Shown here: piece by piece, positions 35,392 to 36,567 of the stretch
Layout: the number at the start of each line of letters is the position of its first letter
Position numbering within the stretch: the first letter of the stretch is position 1
NCBI RefSeq assembly: GCF_016758175.1
Contig: NZ_QYAB01000001.1
Span: 1,323,162 to 1,387,161, forward strand
DNA length: 64,000 nt
Reading direction: 5' to 3'
Source of the DNA: Leucobacter zeae
GTDB taxonomy: Bacteria > Actinomycetota > Actinomycetes > Actinomycetales > Microbacteriaceae
Made by a program: the position numbers and the translations under genes
Notes under the pieces: model-generated
Told to the model about the DNA's origin: nothing
Databases searched by the model: none
Seen by the model: only the letters and a program-made list of their open reading frames with translations

Positions 35392-36567
35392 CTACGCGGC
35401 GTCGAGTGCCCGGCTCACGTCGAGCAGGATGGAGGTCTGCTTCGCATTCCACTCCGGCGTGTCGGGATCGGGCCAGACGGAGAGCTTGACGATGACCGAA
35501 TCGGTCATCGGATCGAGCCACAGGTTCTGCCCGTGGATCCCGATCGCGGAGACGTTGCCGCGCTCGTTGCCGGTGCACCACCACTGCCGGGTGTAGCTGC
35601 CGCTCGGGAACTCGTCGGTGAAGCCCGCGTAGGTCATCGCCTCCTGCGAGCCTCCGGCGAGTACGGCGCGGGTCCACTCCTCGGGCACCACGCGGCCTCC
35701 GGGGGCCGAACCGCCGTCGAGGATCATCCGCCCGACCCGTGCGAGATCCCGAGCGGTCGCGGAGACCCCGCCGTTCGCGAAGCCGAACCCCGTCGAGTCG
35801 ACGGTGATCGTGGCGTCCCGGTCGGCGTCGAGCTTCGACCAGAGGTGCGCGGAGAGCGCCTCGGCGTAGCGCAGACCGGTGACCCGCTCGACGATCCAGC
35901 CGAGCACGTCGGTGTTCGCGGAGCAGTACTGGAACTCCCCGGTGCGTCCGCTCCCGCGGAGGCCGGCGAGGAACGCGTAGGTGTCCGGGGCGTCGCCGGC
36001 GAGCCGGGGGCGCCACCCCGCCGAGCGGTCGTGCGCCTGCACCTCCGACGCCGGGTCGATGTAGTTCTCGTCGTAGTCGATCGAGATCTCCATGTCGAGC
36101 AGCTGCTGCACGGACGGGCCGTCGTAGACGCTGCCCGCGAGCTCGGGCACGTACGCGGTGACCGGCCGGCGGGGATCGATGAGCCCGCGGCCCACGAGCG
36201 CGCCGACGACCGTGCTGCAGAGGGACTTCGAGACGCTCATGAGCAGGTGCAGATCATCGGGGCCGAAACCCGGTCCGTAGTACTCCGCGAGCACATCGGT
36301 GCCCCGGAGCACGAGGAACGCGTCGGTGCAGGTCTCCTCGAGGCGCCGTAGGAGGTCGGGCACCGCGGGGAGCAGCGCGTCGAGACGCACCGCGGCCGCG
36401 GTCCGTGCTTCCGGGGACCGGCGCGACACGGTCGCGGTGTGCGTGAGCTCGCCCATGTTCGCGAAGGCCCAGCGGTTGTAGGGCGGGTCCTGCCACGTCG
36501 CGAGGGAGGGCTCTCCCGCGGGGGCCCCGGCGAAGCGCGCGGGGTGCGGCCCCGTGCCTGCGGTCAT
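35392..36567 (-). CDS. NylB-like serine hydrolase (6-aminohexanoate-dimer hydrolase family)
   Basis: A 391-residue serine hydrolase of the class C beta-lactamase fold. The catalytic set is visible: Ser111 and Lys114 in MSVSKS, Tyr214 in FQYCSANTD, and a KTG-like strand as IGIHGQNLW. From memory it follows NylB (EII) of the nylon-oligomer plasmid pOAD2 closely throughout, with one residue less. Positions matching NylB Tyr170, Asp181 and Asn266 are Tyr169, Asp180 and Asn265. Activity on nylon oligomers is plausible; the natural amide or ester substrate is unknown. ATG at 36567 overlaps the permease stop (ATGA). Confidence 0.85.

Follow-up and report, generated by a model that had tools for sequence, protein, structure and literature searches.

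A chromosomal NylB-type hydrolase gene of Leucobacter zeae and the probable origin of nylB in nylon-degradation clusters from loci of its kind

NylB is much cited as an enzyme that supposedly came into being in a matter of decades, through a frameshift or plasmid duplication. The window analysed here (the whole stretch of 64,000 nucleotides from Leucobacter zeae) carries a chromosomal gene of the same kind, and the question raised by this locus is whether such genes are newcomers or were themselves the source of the nylB found in nylon-degradation clusters. The gene lies at 35392..36567 on the minus strand, with an ATG start at 36567, 1.36 Mb along contig C1 of a 3.47 Mb genome (6 contigs). 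It encodes a serine hydrolase (PF00144) of 391 residues, placed in the NylB clade by the tree. The preliminary description of the window had the reading frame and its length right and left the strand unstated; the ordinary chromosomal setting it proposed also held, the gene adjoining smpB.

The protein was searched against PDB sequences with phmmer. The match to 1wyc (E 4.2e-199) placed residues 4-390 onto 5-391 with zero gaps, at 75.7% identity over 387 residues, which bears out the near end-to-end likeness to NylB claimed earlier. In NylB the serine (Ser111 here) is the nucleophile, Lys114, Tyr169 and Tyr214 assist, and Asp180 and Asn265 shape substrate binding. By alignment to 1wyc, S111, K114, Y169, Y214, D180, N265 and D369 fall on reference positions 112, 115, 170, 215, 181, 266 and 370, the catalytic residues agreeing with the earlier assignment. 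Asp180/Asn265 are in the NylB state and are displaced by no gap; Asp at reference 370 had also been read correctly, though the position is variable among relatives. Ser112, Val113, Lys115, Tyr170, Asp181, Arg187, Tyr215, Ser217, Phe264, Asn266, Trp331, Ile345 and Asp370 (reference numbering) were the same in the window protein and 1wyc (13/13). Among the PDB entries, G181/H266 is seen in 1wyb, to which a 110-aa query with G/H was identical at every residue, and D/N in 1wyc; we take 1wyb to be the NylB' hybrid Hyb-24 with the NylB' state, and 1wyc to be Hyb-24 with D/N introduced. The NylB' (EII') state, Gly181/His266, is absent from the window protein, which has D/N instead. Asp181 and Asn266 are named as mattering for dimer hydrolysis in an excerpt of published work (PMC7019077), and an excerpt of another paper gives NylB 200 times the activity of NylB' on the Ahx dimer, with NylB' the better enzyme on solid film (PMC10858056). 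A label of 'high activity' is therefore substrate-dependent. Overall, sequence comparison supported the homology, residues and chromosomal setting first described, and the protein may be active as a NylB-type enzyme, the high nylon-dimer activity implied earlier being putative.

The strand, operon and locus, absent from the preliminary description, are the more informative part. Upstream of nylB on the same strand is an NCS1-type permease gene (PF02133; 36564..38042, minus, 492 aa), whose stop codon and the nylB start share 4 bases (ATGA), which makes translational coupling of the two likely. A TetR-family regulator gene of 227 aa (38134..38817, plus; PF00440 at 26.8 bits vs a cut-off of 24) is divergent from the permease, and the tmRNA gene ssrA (38904..39275, plus) forms the far border of the block. 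The near border is smpB (34904..35380, plus; PF01668 at 204 bits), convergent with nylB and 11 bases from its stop. Beyond it lie ftsX (33915..34829), a core chromosomal neighbour that is 83-92% identical in other smpB-linked loci, then ftsE (32671..33918) and prfB (31465..32574), all on the plus strand and recognised from sequence. The window gene would be second in an operon of two genes, probably under TetR control; the permease may bring in a small nitrogen compound, whose amide (or ester) bond the NylB-type enzyme may then cut. No PDB relative of the permease was found at E 1e-5. Separately, the run at 20877-28679 of the window, 7-15 kb from nylB, holds a class III aminotransferase (PRK06541, over cut-off) and, all below model cut-offs, an Lrp/AsnC-like regulator, a PotB-like ABC transporter run and an amino-acid permease; its gene content suggests a cluster for taking up and breaking down polyamines or omega-amino acids.

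The locus was surveyed across 32 natural core-clade loci, window included. In 30/32 (all but L013 and L030) a permease gene stood no more than 400 bases upstream of nylB, and in 28/32 tetR was within 4 kb; the tetR misses were L030 and three loci with 1.5 kb upstream only (L070, L071, L087). smpB was within 1.5 kb in only 10 of the 32, window included. The order and orientation smpB / nylB-permease / tetR / tmRNA is common to the window and other genomes, and tmRNA was found beyond tetR in the window and in 7/7 other smpB-linked loci scanned (L011 and L014 lay outside the scan). An Amidohydro_3 gene follows nylB on the same strand in 12/32 loci, all Micrococcaceae and at least 86% identical; this count excludes a match in L029 (31%, opposite strand). 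No NCBIfam model was over cut-off for this Amidohydro_3 protein, so the neighbour does not name a pathway. Three loci showed local changes. In L114 (G418), about 1.4 kb of other DNA splits the permease gene at 10750-12120, with nylB, tetR and smpB still matched; in L111 (G416) the permease match is in two abutting pieces near 10770, a possible frameshift; and in L115 (Microbacterium sp. USTB-Y) tetR and nylB are kept with 1.6 kb between them without an NCS1 permease match, where another transporter may take the place of the permease. Of the 13 next-clade loci, 11 have an Opp-type ATPase gene ahead of the nylB-like one (L074 and L076, the misses, have 1.5-kb flanks). The 5 with enough upstream sequence, L105-L109, show a complete oppABCDF-like run there, at 24-47% identity to its counterpart on contig L101 (below). 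The nylB-like genes seen behind Opp-type transporter genes (L105-L109, L113, L035, L075, L077, L080, L091) are 46-56% identical. Transporter plus hydrolase is a constant theme across NylB-clade loci, and to judge from gene order the pairing of a NylB-like hydrolase with an Opp transporter seems to have come about on more than one occasion.

The alternative that survives best is that the gene encodes a general family VIII carboxylesterase or D-peptidase-like enzyme, without activity on amide oligomers and with D181/N266 serving another substrate. We regard this as a serious possibility, at somewhat over one chance in three. The protein is a member of PF00144, the beta-lactamase family (106.1 bits vs a cut-off of 27), but that sole Pfam family applies and no NCBIfam model came over cut-off, which leaves room for such an enzyme, as does the count of eight PF00144 genes in the genome, among which the nylB-type gene ranks 7th by score. 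NCS1 permeases, moreover, usually carry nucleobases or hydantoins. The 13/13 agreement with 1wyc around the active site speaks against it, and the Opp-type transporters ahead of next-clade genes fit amide or peptide substrates. Elsewhere in the genome lies another NylB-like gene, a distant one that shares 38% identity with the window nylB (G000:C1:852897-854045, L006).

The age of the two residues was read from an alignment made with MAFFT. All 46 NylB-clade rows (45 natural, including the window, and 1wyc) have both D181 and N266, which are among the 56/387 positions invariant across the clade. The 31 outgroup rows have E (24), D (6) or R (1) at 181 and D (30) or A (1) at 266; of these rows, L057 forms a very long branch whose placement is unsure. 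Since D181/N266 are found throughout the aligned clade, they predate nylon. The tree and alignment check proposed in the preliminary description thus answers in favour of an ancestral Asp181/Asn266 with G/H as the departure. As far as aligned sequences can tell, Asp181/Asn266 is no nylon adaptation, and Gly181/His266 of NylB' is derived. Position 370 (D in 27/33 core rows; V, I, L or a gap in the 13 remaining clade rows) is uninformative and carries little weight.

A tree of 77 proteins x 398 columns was built with IQ-TREE in careful mode, the partial L031/L101 row being omitted. The core clade of 33 rows (support 100/100) unites the window protein with Leucobacter, Agromyces, Microbacterium and Arthrobacter/Paenarthrobacter genes. 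The 1wyc sequence is nested among chromosomal genes: it is sister to the L. celer gene (100/99), whose protein is 93.5% identical to it, with G446 next (99/90). The window protein has no settled position inside the core clade. Pairwise dN/dS was 0.12-0.33 in 9/9 pairs (NG86, without correction for G+C bias), and these genes are therefore maintained. Distribution is patchy: 16/54 genus genomes match at E 1e-100 and 13/54 have a relative at least 64% identical, and family-wide 10/398 sampled genomes match nylB at E 1e-100. The window gene matched 174 plasmid records in PLSDB, every one less than 60% identical.

How such a gene could enter a nylon-type cluster is shown by one contig, L101 (JAOASR010000135.1, 7,408 bases, from a MAG named 'Microcella sp.'; L031 in the nylB search). 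It carries an opp run, nylC, an ORF of 194 aa and a nylB that the contig end cuts off after codon 121. oppB and oppD were checked by family models, the other opp genes being named by recognition. Its NylC differs from PDB 3axg, presumably the Agromyces NylC, at 8/355 residues. For scale, published NylC variants differ from that of pOAD2 by 5 and 15 (excerpt of PMC6021441). The 194-aa ORF is a chimera: a C45 acyltransferase gene (PF03417, NF040521) contributes its start, which runs on in frame into the last third of an NCS1 permease. A C45 acyltransferase gene follows nylC in 6/6 opp-nylC loci fetched (L126-L131), out of 11 genomes with a match, and by this neighbourhood the C45-family acyltransferase/hydrolase is a possible partner enzyme of NylC.

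Bases 1-6565 of L101 are 93.3% identical in DNA to the L. celer opp-nylC-C45 locus L126, and bases 6550-7408 match perm-nylB at 92.1% in G446 and 89.2% in L. celer. Compared base by base with L126 and L104, the parent identity switches between 6560 and 6566; 4 bases at the junction are common to all three sequences and at most 5 are in doubt. L101 is therefore an opp-nylC locus fused to a permease tail plus nylB, from two parents, as observed in this one contig, and given so short a shared stretch a misassembly is unlikely. Because the fusion keeps the ATGA overlap of permease tail and nylB, nylB stays coupled, now behind opp-nylC. In DNA trees, the opp-nylC part groups with L. celer (100/100) and the perm-nylB part forms a trio with L. 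celer and G446 (100/100; internal order unsettled), next to which stand two Arthrobacter-type rows (98/96), a pattern absent from the protein tree. In side view, a tRNA-Pro and then a tyrosine-recombinase-like ORF (L126, 14051-15721) lie about 2 kb past the L. celer opp-nylC-C45 locus, and L127 likewise has a tRNA-Pro about 2 kb from its opp-nylC locus; tRNA-Pro near opp-nylC loci is a possible integration hot spot.

Both parent loci were found within Leucobacter genomes. NylC at least 72% identical is present in 11/54 genus genomes, a nylB relative at least 64% identical in the 13 noted above, and both in 4 (G397, G400, G428, G446). The nylB hit of G400 has contig and coordinates identical to those of G814, the named L. 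celer subsp. astrifaciens CBX151. In G446 the two loci share one contig of 3,478,815 bases, 467 kb apart; in G397, G400 and G428 they are on separate contigs. The window's genome gave no NylC at E 1e-60 and has two other Peptidase_S58 genes. A second fused cluster was sought in 395 Paenarthrobacter-family genomes and 398 from the family of the window, with the two top candidates of each genome scored; 14 and 23 genomes had any match, and among the scored candidates none spanned the junction. No PLSDB record covered 80% of L101, the 13 PLSDB records matching NylC were every one less than 60% identical, and viral contigs gave 0 matches to the exact junction pattern.

The field's usual reading is that NylB and NylB' arose by duplication on a plasmid and diverged under nylon selection, which would make the chromosomal genes merely cousins. 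Both genes sit on one plasmid, and an excerpt of PMC10858056 puts them at 88% identity. The L. celer protein is nevertheless closer to 1wyc than NylB is to NylB'. The nylB start of L101 is also nearer G446 (104/116) than 1wyc (94/116), where we infer that L101 can stand in for NylB of pOAD2, and the 1wyc N-terminus, that of Hyb-24, is presumably itself NylB-derived. Finally, a published survey reports that in its 2012 set smpB was confined to chromosomes save for two copies on pOAD2 (excerpt of PMC4131195). Duplication on the plasmid is on balance improbable. The best reading is that nylB, and probably nylB' separately, was captured from chromosomal loci of the window type. With two captures, pOAD2 would have two smpB copies because the smpB-nylB piece had been taken twice, which offers an explanation for that published oddity.

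That the window gene is instead a recent arrival, a nylon-plasmid nylB inserted into the chromosome, is very unlikely: its patchy presence (13/54 and 10/398 genomes, as above) and a smpB-tmRNA gap that could be an insertion hot spot would suit it, but identity to 1wyc is only 75.7%, dN/dS to two relatives is 0.27 and 0.33, the window has a full permease and tetR against the permease tail alone in L101, and the smpB-linked layout recurs in 9 other genomes.

We consider it probable, with good though not full confidence, that this NylB-clade gene is native to the chromosome and kept by selection, and that loci like it supplied the nylB of the nylon cluster by fusion behind oppABCDF-nylC. The source would be smpB / nylB-permease / tetR / tmRNA loci of Leucobacter-like Microbacteriaceae. 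Illegitimate recombination, with no more than 5 bases in common, would have attached a piece of such a locus, permease tail plus nylB, behind oppABCDF-nylC, itself a second locus on the chromosome. By analogy, pOAD2 and Agromyces KY5R presumably carry a junction of the L101 type. A fuller history has slightly better than even odds: the nylonases would be old Leucobacter-like chromosomal enzymes, nylB and nylB' two captures from two related species and nylC brought with its opp operon, the two loci having been fused before there was nylon, after which NylB' lost Asp181/Asn266. Some Leucobacter (G446, L. celer) should then degrade nylon-6 oligomers from chromosomal genes alone.

The gene belongs to a known enzyme kind, and what the locus comparison adds is a concrete, testable origin for nylon-degradation genes. 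It suggests that these were cut out of chromosomal loci like that of the window and may not have newly evolved on nylon. A maintained type of chromosomal locus, with D181/N266 in every clade member compared, gives a history that can be tested, of capture, fusion of old genes and loss in NylB'. The natural NylB and NylC orthologues also form a panel for polyamide recycling.

Published accounts bear on the same region. Arthrobacter and Agromyces have smpB and opp genes in one region with nylB and nylC (excerpt of PMC7019077), and a putative Leucobacter plasmid contig aligns with pOAD2 over 14,820 bases at 94% (excerpt of PMC6868719). As far as these excerpts go, the Leucobacter contig and the smpB copies of pOAD2 agree with an smpB-nylB piece having been captured twice in hosts akin to Leucobacter. 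Plasmid-borne smpB is rare and not unique to pOAD2, being found in 65/72,556 PLSDB records, none more than 80% identical to the window smpB. By title, the literature search for Leucobacter with nylonase or 6-aminohexanoate gave no paper; the early gene-order papers on pOAD2 and KY5R, which lay outside it, may mention the locus.

Among known systems, the window protein is like NylB/EII and NylB'/EII' (EC 3.5.1.46; 1wyb, 1wyc) in its ungapped full length and catalytic residues, and like NylB and 1wyc in D181/N266. It differs in being 75.7% identical to 1wyc, chromosomal, set in a permease operon and of putative activity. PDB 4gb7, titled 6-aminohexanoate-dimer hydrolase, is a relative at E 2e-43 but a distant one (152 bits vs 665 for 1wyc). 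The gene of L. celer subsp. astrifaciens (L009/L102) has the same locus as the window, smpB, nylB, permease, tetR and tmRNA, but is the closer to 1wyc (93.5% vs 75.7%), and L. celer also has an opp-nylC locus (95% NylC), whereas the genome of the window has no NylC at E 1e-60. A cluster of the pOAD2 type has nylC and opp beside nylB, whereas the neighbours of the window nylB are smpB and permease-tetR. pOAD2 and Agromyces KY5R reportedly have a set of genes much like that of L101. The L101 cluster (opp-nylC-nylB) resembles the window in having a permease end before nylB with the ATGA overlap, and differs in that the permease is a tail only, fused to a C45 start, and that nylB stands behind opp-nylC.
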